The notes beneath the pieces are model-generated. The model was not told where the DNA came from. It saw nothing but the letters and a program-made list of their open reading frames with translations, and ran no database searches. This document shows positions 12,163-22,982 of a stretch of 24,095 nt of DNA, piece by piece (within the stretch, counting starts at the first letter, position 1; every line of letters starts with the position of its first letter). Made by a program: the position numbers and the translations under genes. Source of the DNA: a virus; IMG/VR virus record IMGVR_UViG_3300019776_001119, positions 1-24,095 of that record, one strand, 5' to 3'.

Positions 12163-13116
12163 ATGGCCAATACCATTCGCCTCAAGCGATCTGCCACGGC
12201 CGGCAAGGTTCCAGCGACCAGCGATCTCCAGTTGGGCGAGATCGCCGTCAACACCACCGATGGCAAGCTCTATCTGAAGAAGAGCGACGGGGCCGAGGCC
12301 GTCGTCGAGGTGGGCCCGGTCGCCTCCGTGGCCGGCCGCACCGGTGCCGTGACACTGGCGAAGGCGGACGTGGGGCTCGCCAATGCCGACAATACCGCCG
12401 ATGCCGCGAAGCCCGTCTCGACCGCGACCCAGGCGGCGCTCGACGGCAAGGCCAGTGTGGTGCACGGCCATGCGGTCGCGGATGTCACCGGCCTACAGAC
12501 AGCCTTGGATGCCAAGGCGCCGCTGGCCTCTCCGGCGTTGACCGGCACGCCGACGGCGCCGACCCAGACGCAGGGCAATAATTCGACGCGGCTGGCGACG
12601 ACTGCCTATGTCGATACGCTGGGCGGCACCAAGGCCAACACGAGCCACGCCCATGCCATCGGCGATGTCACCAGCCTGCAGACTGCGCTTGACGCCAAGG
12701 CGCCGCTCGCCTCCCCGGCGCTGACTGGAACGCCGACAGCACCCACCGCTGCGGCGTACAATGACAGTGCCCAGATCGCGACCACCGCCCAGGTCCTTGA
12801 TACCGTGACGACGGTGCCGGAGAACGCCCAGACCGGAACGGCCTATACGCTGGTGCTTGGCGACGCTGGCAAATTAGTGACCCTCAACAATGCCGCCGCC
12901 ATCACCCTCACGATCCCAACCAACGCCGCCGTGGGTTTCCCCGTCGGCACCCGTGTCGACCTCGCGCAGTTCGGGGCGGGCCAGGTGACGGTCGGAGGTG
13001 CGGGCGTCACGATCCGCTCCTCGGGCGCCAAGCTCAAGCTCACCGGCCAGTATTCCGGCGCCACCCTGTGGAAGAAGGCGACCGACGAATGGCTTCTGGT
13101 GGGCGATCTCGCATGA
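12163..13116 (+). CDS. Repeat-containing tail fibre protein (copy 1)
   Basis: A 317-residue protein with GGAGG upstream. It begins MANTIRLKRSATAGKVP, then DLQLGEIAVNTTDGKLYLKK, a segment common at the N-terminus of phage fibres. It then has VAGRTGAVTLAKADVGLANA and two copies of KAPLASPALTGTPTAPT, each introduced by a His-rich H-x-H motif (VVHGHAVADVTGLQTALDAK; SHAHAIGDVTSLQTALDAK) and followed by an ATTAYV/ATTAQV stretch. This is the known phage tail-fibre repeat architecture. The last 110 residues (YTLVLGDAGKLVTLNNAAAI to the end) are beta-rich and end in WLLVGDLA, a likely tip domain. The N-terminus and repeats are paralogous to the fibre at 21999. Confidence 0.85.
   Translation: MANTIRLKRSATAGKVPATSDLQLGEIAVNTTDGKLYLKKSDGAEAVVEVGPVASVAGRTGAVTLAKADVGLANADNTADAAKPVSTATQAALDGKASVVHGHAVADVTGLQTALDAKAPLASPALTGTPTAPTQTQGNNSTRLATTAYVDTLGGTKANTSHAHAIGDVTSLQTALDAKAPLASPALTGTPTAPTAAAYNDSAQIATTAQVLDTVTTVPENAQTGTAYTLVLGDAGKLVTLNNAAAITLTIPTNAAVGFPVGTRVDLAQFGAGQVTVGGAGVTIRSSGAKLKLTGQYSGATLWKKATDEWLLVGDLA
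12511..12564 (+). repeat. Fibre repeat unit, copy 1
   Basis: The 54-base unit encodes AKAPLASPALTGTPTAPT. The same 18-codon unit recurs at 12694-12747 and, slightly diverged, at 22302-22355 and 22602-22655. Most base differences are synonymous third positions, indicating selection on the peptide. Confidence 0.9.
12694..12747 (+). repeat. Fibre repeat unit, copy 2
   Basis: The unit encodes AKAPLASPALTGTPTAPT, identical in protein to the copy at 12511. It is preceded by HAHAIGDVTSLQTALD, the same H-x-H lead-in as copy 1. Confidence 0.9.
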
Positions 13117-14729: not shown

Positions 14730-15260
14730 ATGAGCACCATCTACGTGATGGAGGCGGCAAACCTCTTTGCCGGCGACCATGACCCCACGGCCTCCAAGCA
14801 CCTAAGTCTCGCCGAACTGAAGCTGCCGCCCCTCCAGGAAATGTACCAGGAGCACCATGCCGGCGGTTCCCGCGTCCAGATCGAGGTGGCCGTCGGCATC
14901 CAGAAGCTCGAGCCCACCTTCAAGCTCAATGGCTGGGATCCCGATCTGCTCACCCAGTTCGGCCTGGGCTCCTCGCGCCAGAAGGTGTTCACCGCCTATG
15001 GCGTCATCCGCGACAAGCGGACGGGGCTGGCGATCGAGGCCAAGGCCATCATCGAGGGCCGGCTCGGCAAGATCGAGCCCGACGCCTTCCAGCGCGGCGA
15101 GCTCCAGGGGCACGAATACGCCATCAACGAGGTCATGCACTACGAACTCTGGTTCAACGAGAAGGAGAAGCTGTTCTGGGACTTCTTCTCCTCCGAATGG
15201 CGGCTCGACGGCATCTCGCAGAACGACGACGAGCGCCGCATCCTGCGCGTCCAGCGCTGA
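14730..15260 (+). CDS. Major tail tube protein (FII-like, P2 type)
   Basis: A 176-residue protein with AGGGAG at 14716-14721; P2 FII is about 172 residues. It has the tube signature: IYVMEAANLFAGDHDPTASK at the N-terminus, LKLPPLQEMYQEHHAGGSRV, IQKLEPTFKLNGWDPDLLTQ, FGLGSSRQKVFTAYGVIRDK, and the C-terminal LQGHEYAINEVMHYELWFNE. These proteins stack as hexameric rings inside the sheath and form the channel for DNA. It immediately follows the sheath gene, the standard order in contractile-tail phages. Confidence 0.95.
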   Translation: MSTIYVMEAANLFAGDHDPTASKHLSLAELKLPPLQEMYQEHHAGGSRVQIEVAVGIQKLEPTFKLNGWDPDLLTQFGLGSSRQKVFTAYGVIRDKRTGLAIEAKAIIEGRLGKIEPDAFQRGELQGHEYAINEVMHYELWFNEKEKLFWDFFSSEWRLDGISQNDDERRILRVQR

Positions 15261-15278
15261 TCCATGGGAGATGACCGA

Positions 15279-15548
15279 ATGTCCGACACGACCCGCATGA
15301 CGCTGGCCTGTCCGCTGCAGCTCGAGGACCGCTTGGTCACGGAAGTGACCATTCGCCGGCCCAAGGTGCGGGATCTCCGCGCGCTGGAGAAGGCACGGGA
15401 GCCGGGCTTCACAGAACTTGACCAGGGGATCGCCATGGCGGCCGCCCTTTGCGACCTGCCGCTTGCCGCCATGGACGAGATGGATGCCGGCGACTTCGCG
15501 GCGATCTCGGAGGTGCTGGGCGGTTTTTTGCCCAAGCTGCCGGCGTAA
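15279..15548 (+). CDS. Tail assembly chaperone E (zero-frame product)
   Basis: An 89-residue protein from the ATG at 15279, chosen over the ATG at 15264 because GGGAG (15267-15271) is well spaced only for 15279. It contains RLVTEVTIRRPKVRDLRALE and LAAMDEMDAGDFAAISEVLG, the style of P2 gpE and related 'TAC' proteins (P2 E is about 91 residues). Tail chaperones bind the tape measure protein and recruit tube subunits, and are not in the virion. Its end carries the T TTT TTG slippery heptamer at 15524-15530, ahead of the TAA at 15546-15548, allowing the longer E' form. Confidence 0.9.
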   Translation: MSDTTRMTLACPLQLEDRLVTEVTIRRPKVRDLRALEKAREPGFTELDQGIAMAAALCDLPLAAMDEMDAGDFAAISEVLGGFLPKLPA

Positions 15549-15685
15549 ACGGCTGGCGGAGCTTGGTGGCCGACGTGGCACACGTTCTCTCCACGCCATT
15601 GATAGCCTTCGACGACATGGACTGGGCCGAGCTGCTGCTCTGGCATGCGGAAGCCCTGCGTCTGACCGGCGCCAAGAGGGAGTGA
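15279..15685 (+). CDS. Tail assembly chaperone E-E' fusion made by -1 frameshift
   Basis: The predicted product has 135 residues: 84 from the zero frame up to TTG at 15528-15530, then 51 from the -1 frame, beginning AQAAGVNGWRSLVADVAHVL and ending AEALRLTGAKRE at the TGA 15683-15685. P2 E+E' is about 142 residues and is made by the same -1 slip on T TTT TTG. The -1 extension has no suitable start of its own, and its DWAELLLWHAEAL segment is typical of E'. The stop lies only four bases before the tape measure gene. The frameshift is inferred from motif and synteny. Confidence 0.85.
15524..15530 (+). other. Programmed -1 ribosomal frameshift slippery heptamer T TTT TTG
   Basis: The zero-frame codons are GGT TTT TTG, which fit the X XXY YYZ slippery rule and equal the P2 E/E' slip site. 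One base later an imperfect stem begins: CCAAGCT (15532-15538) pairs with AGCTTGG (15560-15566). An inner stem GCCG (15539-15542)/CGGC (15550-15553) encloses a 7-base loop containing the zero-frame TAA. The hairpin could stimulate slippage. Confidence 0.85.
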
Positions 15686-15688
15686 GCG

Positions 15689-18016
15689 ATGGCGAGCCAG
15701 ACCACGCAGCTCATCGTCGAACTCCTCGACCGGGTTTCAGGCCCGGCGCGCGGGGTGGCGAACAGCCTCCGCGGCATCACCCGCACGGTACGTGACGCGA
15801 CGGGCGGACACATTACGCTCGCCGACCGGCTCGACGCCGCGATCTCCCGCAACAATCGCGCCATCGATGCCGCCCGCGGCCGCATGCTCGATGCCATCGG
15901 CACGCTCTATGTTCTGAAGAATGCACTGTCGGCGCCGGTGGCGTCCGCCCAGGAACTCGAGCGGGCGCTGGCCGAGCTTGGCGCCAAGGGCAATTTGTCC
16001 GCGACCCAGCTGAAGGATATCGGCAGCGCCGCGAAGGCCACCTCGACCCAGGTCAACCAGTTCACCACCGACATCATCCGGACCCAGGATTTCCTCGTCG
16101 GCATGGGTCTCGATGTCGAGCGTTCCACGAAAGCCATGCCGTCGATCGGCAAGGCCGCGACGGCGACCGGCGCCAGCCTCGAGGACCTGTCCAAGGCTGG
16201 CTTCGCGGCGATGTCGAACTTAGGGATCAAGGCCGAGGACCTCGCGCGCTCCTTCGACATCATGGCGGCGGCCGGCAAGGCGGGCGGCTTCGAGCTCAAG
16301 GACATGGCGCAGTATCTGCCGTCCATTACCGCACTCGCCAGTTCCAAGGGCATGACCGGGCAACAGGGTTTGTCCGAGATTGCCGCGGCGCTGCAGATTG
16401 TCAGGCGTGGTGCCGGCGACAGTTCGGAGGCCGCCACCAACTTCAACAACATCCTGCAGAAGATCAATTCGAACGACGCCATCAAGAACTTCAAGAAGCA
16501 CGGGGTCGACATCCGCAAGGTGCTCAAGGACGCGGTCGCCAAGGGTGCGGATCCCCTGGAAGCCGCCTTGCGCGCCATCAACAAGGCGATCAAGGGCGAT
16601 ACCTCGCGTCTCGGTGAACTCTTCAACGATGCCCAGGTCCAGAAGGGCCTGTTGCCGCTCCTCAATGGCCTCGACGACTATATCCAGATCCGCGACCAGA
16701 CGTCCAAGGCTTCGGGGGTCGTCGACAAGGACTTCGCCCGGATGATGGAGACCGGCGTCGAGAAGATGAAGGCCTTCCGGGTTGCCATCCAGAACCTTGC
16801 CACCAGTATCGGCAACGCGCTGATCCCGATCCTCGGGGATGCCGCGAGGACGCTGAAGCCCCTCGTCGAGGGCCTGATCGGTATCGTCGATGCCCATCCG
16901 CGCATTGCCGGAGCGCTCGTCGCCATCACGGCGGGCTTCATCGGCCTCAAGGCAGCGCTCGCCGGCCTCTCCTACCTGGGCCTGATGGGCAAGGGCGGCA
17001 TGCTGTCGGTGCTGTCCTTCGGAGTGAACACGCTGGGCGGGTCCTTCATGCGTCTCAAGGACGGCGCTACCGGCATGATTGCCCTTCAGACCGCGCTTGC
17101 CGGCATGGAGGGGCTGAAGATGACCGGCCTCCAGACCGCGGCCGCGGGTCTGCGCGGCATGGCGCTGGCCGTGCCGGGGGTCTCGGGGCTTGCGACCGCC
17201 ATGACCGCTGTCGGCGGGGCGCTGGCCGCGGTGTCGGCGCCCGTGTGGGCCGGCATCGCGCTCGCCATTGCCGCCGTCGCGGCGGCGGCCTTCTCGCTGT
17301 GGAAGTACTGGGACCGGATCTCTTCCTTCGTGGGGGGCTTTGCGTCGGCGCTGATGACGCAACTGCAGCCCGCCTTCGCGGCCCTCGAGCCTGTGATGCG
17401 GCCGCTGGCGTCCCTTGGCCGGGCGATCGGTGACGGCTTCTCCTGGGCGTATCTCAAGCTCCAGGAGTTCGGGACCTGGATCTCCTCTTTCTTCTCGCGC
17501 GAGGTGCTGAACGAGGGTCAGAAGCAGCAATACGCTCAGGCAGGTGCGGATCTCGCCAATGCCATGATCGCCGCCATCAAGGCGGCCTTCGACGGACTGG
17601 TCGCCTGGTTCGCCTCGCTCCCCTCGCGCATCGTTGCCGCCATCGGCCGCATCGATGTCTCGGGGCTCATCAAGTGGCCCACGCTGCCATCATGGTTGGG
17701 AGGCGGCAGTCCCGCCCCGGCCGCCAACGAGAATACGCCTCCGGGTCGTGCCGTTGGCGGGCCTGTCTCGCGTGGGGCCTCTTACATGGTGGGCGAGAAG
17801 GGGCCGGAGCTCATCACCGCGGGGCGGTCTGGCTACGTCAATCGGGCGGGTGCAGTGGGGGCGACCGGCATTACCGTGTCGCCTGTCTTCAACATGACGT
17901 TCAACGGCCGTGCGGACTCGGAAGATATCGTCCAGCAGATCCGCCGCGTGCTGCGCGACGAGGTGCGCGAGACCTTCCGCGGCGTCTTCGCCGACACATC
18001 CATGAGGTTTGCCTGA
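15689..18016 (+). CDS. Tail tape measure protein (gpT-like)
   Basis: A 775-residue protein (P2 T is about 815) with AGAGGGAG upstream and a start four bases after the E' stop. The N-terminal TTQLIVELLDRVSGPARGVA and later DLSKAGFAAMSNLGIKAEDL with FELKDMAQYLPSITALASSK are characteristic of TP901-type tape measures. Two long hydrophobic stretches occur near residues 405-430 (IAGALVAITAGFIGLKAALA) and 516-540 (APVWAGIALAIAAVAAAAFS). The C-terminus has RAVGGPVSRGASYMVGEKGP, the 'GG.v.aG..y.vGE.GPE' motif common to the family. It sets tail length and exits at infection, its hydrophobic parts probably entering the host membrane. Confidence 0.95.
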   Translation: MASQTTQLIVELLDRVSGPARGVANSLRGITRTVRDATGGHITLADRLDAAISRNNRAIDAARGRMLDAIGTLYVLKNALSAPVASAQELERALAELGAKGNLSATQLKDIGSAAKATSTQVNQFTTDIIRTQDFLVGMGLDVERSTKAMPSIGKAATATGASLEDLSKAGFAAMSNLGIKAEDLARSFDIMAAAGKAGGFELKDMAQYLPSITALASSKGMTGQQGLSEIAAALQIVRRGAGDSSEAATNFNNILQKINSNDAIKNFKKHGVDIRKVLKDAVAKGADPLEAALRAINKAIKGDTSRLGELFNDAQVQKGLLPLLNGLDDYIQIRDQTSKASGVVDKDFARMMETGVEKMKAFRVAIQNLATSIGNALIPILGDAARTLKPLVEGLIGIVDAHPRIAGALVAITAGFIGLKAALAGLSYLGLMGKGGMLSVLSFGVNTLGGSFMRLKDGATGMIALQTALAGMEGLKMTGLQTAAAGLRGMALAVPGVSGLATAMTAVGGALAAVSAPVWAGIALAIAAVAAAAFSLWKYWDRISSFVGGFASALMTQLQPAFAALEPVMRPLASLGRAIGDGFSWAYLKLQEFGTWISSFFSREVLNEGQKQQYAQAGADLANAMIAAIKAAFDGLVAWFASLPSRIVAAIGRIDVSGLIKWPTLPSWLGGGSPAPAANENTPPGRAVGGPVSRGASYMVGEKGPELITAGRSGYVNRAGAVGATGITVSPVFNMTFNGRADSEDIVQQIRRVLRDEVRETFRGVFADTSMRFA

Positions 18017-19997: not shown

Positions 19998-20080
19998 GAG
20001 CAGACCGCTCCCCTCTTTCACCGTCCTTTCCAACCACACCGGCAGCGACCCGCTTGCCGCAACACGGAGGCTTGTCACCT

Positions 20081-21019
20081 ATGCCCACCCCACTCGACAT
20101 CGCCCGCGGCTACCTCGGCACAAAGGAACTGAAGGGGTCCGCCGACAATCCGAAGATCATGGAGATGTACCGCACCGTCGGCCATGACTGGGTCGAGCAC
20201 GACGAAGTCGCCTGGTGCGCCGCCTTCGTCGGCAATTGCCTGGAAAAGGCAGGGATCACTTCCACGCGCAAGCTCAACGCGCGTTCCTATCTCACCTGGG
20301 GCGAGAAGGTAGTGGGTGTCGACCAAGCCGAGGAGGGTGACGTTGTGGTGTTCACGCGCGGCGCCAAATCCAGCGAGGGACATGTCGCCTTCTTCCTCAA
20401 AGCCACGGGCGGCCAAGTCGAGGTGCTGGGGGGCAACCAGTCGGACGGCGTCACCGTCGCGCGCTATCCGAAGGCGCGGGTCATCGGCATCAGGCGTCCC
20501 CTCGCAACGTCCGCGCCGTCGAGGCCTGAACTCCGGGTCATCCAGCAGCAGCTGCAGGACCTGGGTTACTACGAGGTCGGCAATGTCGATGGCCACTATG
20601 GCCCGCGCACCCGGGCGGCCATTCTGGCGTTTCGCGCCGACAATGGCCTGGCGCTGTCGCCCGACATCGATGTTCCGCTCGCCGATGCCCTGCAGCATGG
20701 AAAGCCCCGGGCGATTTCTGCAGCACGCGCAGAGGGGAAGCCCGAGAGTTCGCGCATCGTGAAGGCGGCGAACAGGCAGATCGCCACCGGTGTCATCGGC
20801 ATGGCCGGTGTGGCAGCCTCCGTCGTGGCGCCGGCGGTCGACACGGCCGAGCGGGCGAAGGATGTGACCGAGCGTACCGTGAGCCTTATGAACCTGACAG
20901 ACTGGCTATTGCCGGTGCTGCCCTGGGCGGGTGCCGTCATCTTTCTCATCGTCATCGTGCTGGCGTGGAAGGCCAAGGCCGCCCGAATCGAGGACTACCG
21001 CACGGGGAAGACGCCGTGA
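20081..21019 (+). CDS. Putative endolysin: TIGR02594/CHAP-like peptidase, PG-binding domain, C-terminal membrane segments
   Basis: A 312-residue protein from the ATG at 20081, with ACGGAGG at 20064-20070; a TTG at 20054 is less supported. Residues 1-140 are a cysteine peptidase/amidase of the TIGR02594 type: WCAAFVGNCLEKAG with predicted nucleophile Cys46, SEGHVAFFL with His101, and LGGNQSDGV with Asn119. Residues about 150-205 match the peptidoglycan-binding PG_binding_1 fold (LRVIQQQLQDLGYYEVGNVD, GHYGPRTRAAILAFRADNGL). Two hydrophobic segments follow, about 234-253 and 275-296. It would cut cell-wall peptides or amides at lysis. The membrane tail could anchor the enzyme or act holin-like; that is inference. 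Confidence 0.86.
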   Translation: MPTPLDIARGYLGTKELKGSADNPKIMEMYRTVGHDWVEHDEVAWCAAFVGNCLEKAGITSTRKLNARSYLTWGEKVVGVDQAEEGDVVVFTRGAKSSEGHVAFFLKATGGQVEVLGGNQSDGVTVARYPKARVIGIRRPLATSAPSRPELRVIQQQLQDLGYYEVGNVDGHYGPRTRAAILAFRADNGLALSPDIDVPLADALQHGKPRAISAARAEGKPESSRIVKAANRQIATGVIGMAGVAASVVAPAVDTAERAKDVTERTVSLMNLTDWLLPVLPWAGAVIFLIVIVLAWKAKAARIEDYRTGKTP

Positions 21020-21998: not shown

Positions 21999-22982
21999 AT
22001 GGCAAACGTCATCCGAATCAAGCGTCGCGTCACCGGCCTCGCCGGGGCGCCCTCGGCACTGAAATCCGCTGAACTCGCGCACAACGAGGTCGACGATACA
22101 CTCTATGTCGGCAAGGGTGACGACGGCGCCGGAAACGCCACTTCTGTCGTTCCGCTCGCCGGCAAGGGCGCCTTCGTCGACCTGGGCAACGCCCAGACCG
22201 TTGCAGGCGCCAAGATCTTCTCCACCGTGCCGAAGTCGTCCCAGGACGCGTCCGGCGGCACCGACCTCGTGCGAAAGAGCCAGGTCGACACGCTGCTGGC
22301 GGCAAAGGCGCCGCTGGCGTCGCCCAATCTGACGGGCACGCCGACGGCCCCCACGGCAGCTCCCGCGACCAACACGACCCAGATCGCCACGACCGCCTTC
22401 GTGCAGGATGCCCTTGCCGGGGTCGGCGCCGGCGACATGCTGAAATCGGTCTACGATACCACCAACAACGGCAAGGTGGATGCTGCGGAAACGGCGGATG
22501 CCGTGCCCTGGACTGGCGTCACAGGCAAGCCGTCCAGTTTCATCCCGGGCGCGCATACACATGCCACGTCGGAGGTCACGGGACTCGATACCGCCCTTGC
22601 CGCCAAGGCGCCCCTGGCTTCGCCTGCCCTCACCGGAACGCCCACGGCTCCCACCGCCACGGAGGGCAACAGCTCGACCCAGATCGCCACGACGGCCTTC
22701 GTGGCGGCGGCGGTGGCAGCCGTGATCAACGGCTCGCCCGGCGCTCTCGATACGCTGAACGAGCTCGCTGCCGCGCTGGGAAACGACGAGAATTTTTCGG
22801 CGACGCTCACCAATGCACTCGCCGGAAAGCTCACGAAATCCCTGAACCTGTCTGACTTGAGCGATGCGGCTGCGGCCCGATCAAACCTCGGCCTGGGCTC
22901 GATGGCAGCCCAGAACGCAAGTGCGGTCGCCATCACGGGCGGAAGTGTGGATGGCACCACTCTCGACGGCGGCACGTTCTGA
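21999..22982 (+). CDS. Repeat-containing tail fibre protein (copy 2)
   Basis: A 327-residue protein with CAGGGA upstream. It begins MANVIRIKRRVTGLAGAPSA, then LKSAELAHNEVDDTLYVGKG, a fibre N-terminal pattern shared with the fibre at 12163. It carries two KAPLASP-LTGTPTAPT repeat units, each followed by TTQIATTAFV or STQIATTAFV, and an HTHATSEVTGLDTAL H-x-H module. It continues with GSPGALDTLNELAAALGNDE and LSDLSDAAAARSNLGLGS, common fibre C-terminal shaft motifs. It ends SVDGTTLDGGTF. The shaft and attachment are clear, but there is no large tip domain, so it may attach to another protein such as the adhesin encoded next. Confidence 0.87.
   Translation: MANVIRIKRRVTGLAGAPSALKSAELAHNEVDDTLYVGKGDDGAGNATSVVPLAGKGAFVDLGNAQTVAGAKIFSTVPKSSQDASGGTDLVRKSQVDTLLAAKAPLASPNLTGTPTAPTAAPATNTTQIATTAFVQDALAGVGAGDMLKSVYDTTNNGKVDAAETADAVPWTGVTGKPSSFIPGAHTHATSEVTGLDTALAAKAPLASPALTGTPTAPTATEGNSSTQIATTAFVAAAVAAVINGSPGALDTLNELAAALGNDENFSATLTNALAGKLTKSLNLSDLSDAAAARSNLGLGSMAAQNASAVAITGGSVDGTTLDGGTF
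22302..22355 (+). repeat. Fibre repeat unit, copy 3
   Basis: This encodes AKAPLASPNLTGTPTAPT, differing from copies 1 and 2 by one residue (Asn for Ala). It is followed by ATNTTQIATTAFV. Confidence 0.88.
22602..22655 (+). repeat. Fibre repeat unit, copy 4
   Basis: This encodes AKAPLASPALTGTPTAPT, identical in protein to copies 1 and 2, and is followed by GNSSTQIATTAFV. An H-x-H motif (HTHATSEVTGLDTAL) precedes it. Confidence 0.88.

Follow-up and report, generated by a model that had tools for sequence, protein, structure and literature searches.

A P2-type E/E' frameshift site in an alphaproteobacterial phage or prophage, with a conserved internal Shine-Dalgarno-like element as its most likely stimulator

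Which part of the mRNA might help ribosomes to change frame at the junction of the tail genes E and E' is the question that this locus raises. We analyzed the window, the whole 24,095-nt stretch of viral DNA of which positions 15,279 to 15,685 are shown above (positions 1 to 24,095 of IMG/VR record IMGVR_UViG_3300019776_001119), together with related junctions from viral and genome collections. A preliminary description had proposed that a hairpin immediately downstream of the slippery heptamer stimulates -1 frameshifting and that the zero-frame stop codon, hidden in the loop, couples termination to it. As the case shows, even a conspicuous hairpin next to a slippery site may be an accident of a single GC-rich sequence, and it is the relatives that decide.

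The gene content around the junction is that of a P2-type tail module (Table 1). The cassette lies between FII and the tape measure gene, as is usual for P2-type E/E' cassettes, and the wider order FI-FII-E/E'-T-U-X-D (U, PF06995; X, PF05489; D-like, phrog_52) matches that of P2. The tape measure protein presumably serves both E and E-E' as client. Zero-frame translation of E ends at TAA (15546-15548), 15 nt past the heptamer, giving the 89-aa product. An alternative in-frame ATG is present at 15264; because the E relatives begin at 15279, the longer reading frame is unlikely to be the one used. From 15530 onward, the -1 frame stays open until a TGA at 15683-15685, 3 nt ahead of the tape measure ATG; the predicted E-E' fusion has 84 + 51 = 135 residues. 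E' matches PF06528 with E = 0.0013 and 18.7 bits, under the curated cutoff of 23, and phrog_6416 with E = 0.0043; its membership in PF06528 is therefore only suggestive. An Rfam scan returned zero matches. Close relatives of the window were located in Aestuariivirga genomes by a GTDB genome scan, the prophages of L082 and L083 among them.

Table 1. Features of the E/E' cassette and its neighbors in the window
Feature	Coordinates	Strand	Remarks
Tail tube protein FII gene	14730..15260	+	PF04985, E = 9e-20; 5' of E
Gene E equivalent, 89-aa tail assembly chaperone (zero-frame product)	15279..15548	+	PF10109 Phage_TAC_7, E = 3e-14, above cutoff; phrog_166 tail protein
GGAGGTG, Shine-Dalgarno-like, inside E	15509..15515	+	Proposed stimulator; 10 nt from GGAGG to heptamer
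Slippery heptamer T_TTT_TTG	15524..15530	+	In phase; 77 of 78 distinct relatives keep an in-phase T6N
E' extension, -1 frame, 51 aa	15530..15685	+	PF06528 Phage_P2_GpE; phrog_6416; conservation across 19 relatives
Potential stem-loop with zero-frame stop in loop	15532..15566	+	Judged idiosyncratic, no conserved stimulator
Tape measure protein gene (T equivalent)	15689..18016	+	PF10145, E = 2.1e-26

Two other parts of the window also drew our attention. The fibre-like open reading frames at 12163-13116 and 21999-22982 have LASPxLTGTPTAPT-type repeats in common, and the first matches the PF12789 phage tail repeat, which suggests that the tail module carries duplicated tail-fibre parts at its two ends. 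The protein encoded at 20054-21019 carries a CHAP domain, a peptidoglycan-binding domain, and a hydrophobic stretch at its C-terminus, and is likely an endolysin or tail lysozyme.

The heptamer is in phase with E, since GGT TTT TTG occupies 15522-15530 in the frame set by the ATG at 15279, and this X_XXY_YYZ heptamer lies inside the overlap of the E and -1 frames. The placement of the heptamer and the extent of the open -1 frame given in the preliminary description hold at every coordinate. TTTTTTG occurs once in the window, compared to 0.43 expected occurrences; the significance of the heptamer comes from its phase and conservation, not from its bare occurrence. Four scans of IMG/VR, two with E and two with E', and one of GTDB genomes yielded 78 distinct E/E' junctions. 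In 77 of these, T_TTT_TTN is found in the same phase, and the sole exception (L126) has GGGTTTT. The last base is mostly G in the window's own group and C in two sister groups, while A or T is rare. The codon before the heptamer always has T as its last base (GGT in 39/39), and the -1 protein retains the motifs W-R, ADxAHVLSTP, MDW, and LLWHAEARR across 19 relatives. Given this constant phase, the T-ending preceding codon, and the conserved -1 protein, programmed frameshifting is strongly supported; E and, weakly, E' also resemble P2 families, in agreement with the earlier assignment to the P2-type E/E' kind.

Several junctions vary at or near the slip site. Some relatives (L137, L171, L340 from phage Smp131, and L343 from Zymomonas) have T7 instead of T6, and the Smp131 and Zymomonas copies are also without an SD (Shine-Dalgarno)-like motif upstream. 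In L121 (1802 onward), a TAG interrupts E' in frame at the conserved Trp codon, with the heptamer and the remainder of E' seemingly intact, which we ascribe to a decayed prophage or a sequencing error. The zero-frame stop lies at +15 in close relatives (TAA, TGA, or TAG) and at +27, +33, +36, +57, or +87 in other clades, all of which retain the frameshift site. In most close relatives (L002-L029), the E stop reads GTGA or ATGA, with a potential -1-frame start codon overlapping the stop; the corresponding bases of the window (15545-15548) are GTAA.

The hairpin of the preliminary description can be formed in the window, though not quite as drawn. CCAAGCT (15532-15538) and AGCTTGG (15560-15566) are exact complements, and the TAA does fall in the loop that they enclose. 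The GCCG and CGGC segments assigned to the inner stem are present, yet folding to minimum energy sets the inner stem in another register, with 6 bp between GCCGGC (15539-15544) and GCUGGC (15552-15557) and a loop, GUAAACG, that still contains the stop codon. Folded alone, positions 15531-15570 reach -21.6 kcal/mol (z -2.6). Within a 123-nt context, the z-score amounts to no more than -0.55, and other pairings take the place of the outer stem. A perfect 7-bp stem beginning 1-9 nt downstream is found for 2.2% of window positions, and 0.8% of 40-nt windows fold as stably as the hairpin. The stem is unusual in this sequence, not extraordinary. When the first 8 nt are treated as occupied by the ribosome, the minimum free energy (MFE) structure of the window is without this hairpin, and the inner helix has a probability of 0.01.

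The relatives do not preserve the hairpin. We tested stem pairing in a near gap-free alignment of 31 relatives (alignment A3), in which the outer stem was paired in 58.1% of cells (shuffles, 59.1%), the inner stem of the preliminary description in 57.3% (shuffles, 59.6%), and the minimum-energy inner stem in 72.0% (shuffles, 73.1%). Compensating changes in the stems showed no excess over shuffles among these 31 sequences, with zero in the minimum-energy inner stem, and the RNAalifold consensus of the alignment has no hairpin at that place. The region from +1 to +45 has a mean z of +0.54 in the close clade, indicating structure no greater than composition gives. The inner pairs that do persist can be explained by protein coding, because they involve the conserved Trp codon UGG along with conserved Pro, Gly, and Ala codons. 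Because the stop position varies from +15 to +87 among clades, the mechanism does not include a stop codon within the loop. The downstream hairpin is no conserved part of the signal as far as the alignment indicates, and its enclosure of the stop codon is best taken as a coincidence. The covariation analysis of relatives that the preliminary description had proposed gave its stem no support; of the two losses that it had named as contrary evidence, that of the stem pairing is seen in the relatives, and the -1 frame is kept.

Other candidate structures fared no better. A stem enclosing the heptamer (GGGC/GCCC) had pairing and covariation not beyond shuffles. In the close clade, a hairpin further downstream (+26 to +51) was paired in 83.5% of cells, a value equal to that of shuffles, and was ascribed to coding composition. 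A pseudoknot between the loop bases AACG and CGTT at 15583-15586 would comprise four bases only, and CGTT is unconserved in the alignment. A stem-loop 5-9 nt downstream that is conserved by covariation was not found at this junction.

A different picture emerged in a group with TTTTTTC as heptamer (L128:2492-2551 and kin, alignment A5; stop at +36 or +57), which we take from its sequences to be Rhodobacteraceae-type, a name of our own inferring. Here, the heptamer is followed at a distance of 6 nt by a 14-bp-class hairpin. Among 14 sequences, pairing holds in 87.2% of cells, a value reached in 0 of 500 shuffles, and one pair varies among U-G, G-C, and A-U. Given this hairpin with some covariation, the family is not without downstream stimulators. 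The L128-type hairpin is absent in L288 and L314, so 3' stimulators appear to come and go in the family while the SD stays.

The preliminary description had overlooked an SD-like element upstream of the heptamer. According to duplex energies with the 16S rRNA tail, this site pairs with the anti-SD more strongly than any other in the 260 nt that precede the heptamer, both in the window (GGAGGTG) and in most relatives; the mean energy at this place is -12.1 kcal/mol (65 sequences) compared to roughly 0 to -6 kcal/mol elsewhere. The sequence immediately 5' of it pairs poorly, and poor pairing just 5' has been described for stimulatory SDs (PMC5009743). Its spacing of 10 nt falls within the published ranges for -1 stimulators, which are 9-14 nt (PMC5009743) and, counted to the second base of the motif, 6-17 nt (PMC4066793); SD-stimulated -1 frameshifting is known from dnaX and IS elements, and the motif here has the spacing and the codon-level conservation looked for in that kind. 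An SD motif at published spacing is present in 75 of 78 relatives and at 21.5% of control positions, although this count, like the codon counts below, is taken over relatives of shared ancestry, which overstates independence and makes it optimistic. In E genes from a phage collection, a P2-like set from varied hosts (L167, L332-L347), the heptamer is preceded by an SD-like motif in 16 of 21 cases, P2 with its AAGGTG included, compared to 6.9% of control positions. The motif is weakened or lost in a few relatives (GGAGAUG in L107, GAUGU in L099 and L113, and L135).

Because Ser-Glu-Val is conserved in E and the SD codons also encode these amino acids, we examined codon use column by column in 64 representatives that are at most 95% identical. 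The SD Glu codon is GAG in 60 of 60 sequences, the only invariant Glu column, with other Glu columns ranging from 21 to 94% GAG. The SD Val codon is GTG in 51 of 57, compared to 4 to 71% in other Val columns; GTC, the commonest Val codon elsewhere in E, accounts for only 2 of the 57. L288 and its kin have Glu in place of Val, yet GGAGGAGG still forms an SD. In codon choice, the SD columns clearly differ from the remaining columns of these sequences.

The heptamer phase, the -1 protein, and an SD with codon-level constraint are conserved at this junction, with no conserved downstream structure there. The reading that we favor, with a probability of about 0.78, is an SD-assisted -1 ribosomal frameshift of the P2 E/E' type in the contractile-tail operon of an alphaproteobacterial (Aestuariivirga-related) phage or prophage. 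We infer slippage itself and its rate, stimulation by the SD, and the chaperone roles as follows. Most ribosomes would terminate at 15546-15548 and release the chaperone E, and a minority would slip back one base on T_TTT_TTG by tandem slippage and complete the E-E' fusion. GGAGGTG, the most likely stimulator, would pair with the 3' end of 16S rRNA during decoding of the heptamer, in the manner of E. coli dnaX. T_TTT_TTG is outside the E. coli heptamers of highest efficiency (PMC4066793), which makes a stimulator plausible. E may coat the tape measure and E' may recruit tail-tube subunits, as the analogy with lambda gpG/gpGT suggests.

Other explanations of the same junction have to be weighed against SD-assisted slippage. 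If the hairpin at 15532-15566 were the stimulator, with the stop in its loop coupling termination to frameshifting, its stability in the window and the 8-nt spacer to the inner stem, which would be suitable, would find a use; the shuffle-like pairing in 31 relatives, the composition-like folding of the close clade, the disappearance of the hairpin from folds that leave out the ribosome-covered bases, and the shifting stop position make this improbable. The GAG GTG might instead be a by-product of GC-rich codon use and of the conserved peptide Ser-Glu-Val, with a heptamer that slips unaided. Some frameshift genes are without stimulators, and the peptide is indeed conserved; nevertheless, avoidance of GTC and invariance of GAG at just these codons, the modest standing of T_TTT_TTG among E. 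coli heptamers, and the SD-like motifs of P2-like phages with other peptides all argue against a by-product, and we consider it unlikely, if less so than the stimulatory hairpin.

Two further proposals dispense with ribosomal slippage, and both seem to us very improbable. RNA polymerase could slip at the T6 run, a homopolymer that is extended to T7 in some relatives (L137; phage Smp131), and so yield the -1 product. Six T are short for transcriptional slippage. Polymerase slippage is, moreover, independent of phase, yet the T_TTT_TTN phase is kept in all 77 cases, and the upstream SD would be without a role. E' could also be a separate protein, made by termination and reinitiation at the end of E, as the GTGA or ATGA of many close relatives and a weak AAGG upstream might allow; however, a start codon is absent from the GTAA of the window, and other clades without a stop near that place retain the -1 frame and the heptamer.

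Under SD-assisted frameshifting, the ratio of E to E-E' would be the quantity at stake, as it is presumed to control tail assembly in the manner of G : GT in lambda. P2-like E/E' sites are said to have no visible stimulator (PMC3091744), and a conserved, codon-constrained internal SD at the right spacing would supply one. In a literature search that extended to work other than the primary papers of 2002 (P2) and 2004 (tail frameshift), an SD for E/E' was not reported. A broader proposition, to which we would give even odds, is that E/E' frameshifting is generally driven by an SD and not by 3' RNA structure, that individual clades gain or lose 3' hairpins, and that the SD sets the E : E-E' ratio.

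Among known systems, phage P2 is the nearest in kind. Christie et al. are said in PMC3091744 to have described, in 2002, the programmed -1 frameshift that gives E and E+E' in P2. The P2 record (AF063097) shares with the window the gene order, T_TTT_TTG, and a -1 frame up to gene T, and annotates the E+E' frameshift at TTTTTTG, which bears out the earlier statement that P2 uses the same heptamer. The products are of similar size (91 and 142 aa in P2; 89 and 135 aa here), and P2 also has its SD-like motif upstream of the heptamer; in contrast, the P2 stop is at +18 instead of +15, the P2 SD-like site is closer and weaker (-7.3 compared to -13.2 kcal/mol in the window), and the E' proteins are only distantly alike. 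A scan of viral contigs with P2 gpE recovered near-identical coliphage copies and added nothing. The nearest homologues in the phage collection, the E genes of Acidithiobacillus phage AcaML1 and Wolbachia phage WO (32-36% identity), likewise have an in-phase T6N followed by a -1 frame of E' length, but differ in stop distance, and the SD-like site is weak or absent in WOcauB1. A screen of the P2-like phages KS5, KS14, and KL3 did not find a downstream hairpin, and one is absent in P2 as well, as far as the citation in that source goes (PMC3091744); the absence of a conserved hairpin here is in line with that study.

More distant systems share single elements of the cassette. Domain and phrog profile searches of the window proteins gave no match to the lambda gpG/GT family. 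The lambda slip site is GGGAAAG, which differs from T_TTT_TTG. The two systems are alike in making two proteins from one start by a -1 shift ahead of the tape measure gene (PMC5009743). In E. coli dnaX, too, an internal SD precedes a homopolymeric heptamer by about 10 nt (PMC5009743); dnaX differs in using A_AAA_AAG, in having a well-defined 3' stem-loop besides, and in being an unrelated gene. By gene, place, and heptamer, the cassette is P2-type E/E', and in its candidate upstream stimulator, it is dnaX-like; it is thus of a known kind.
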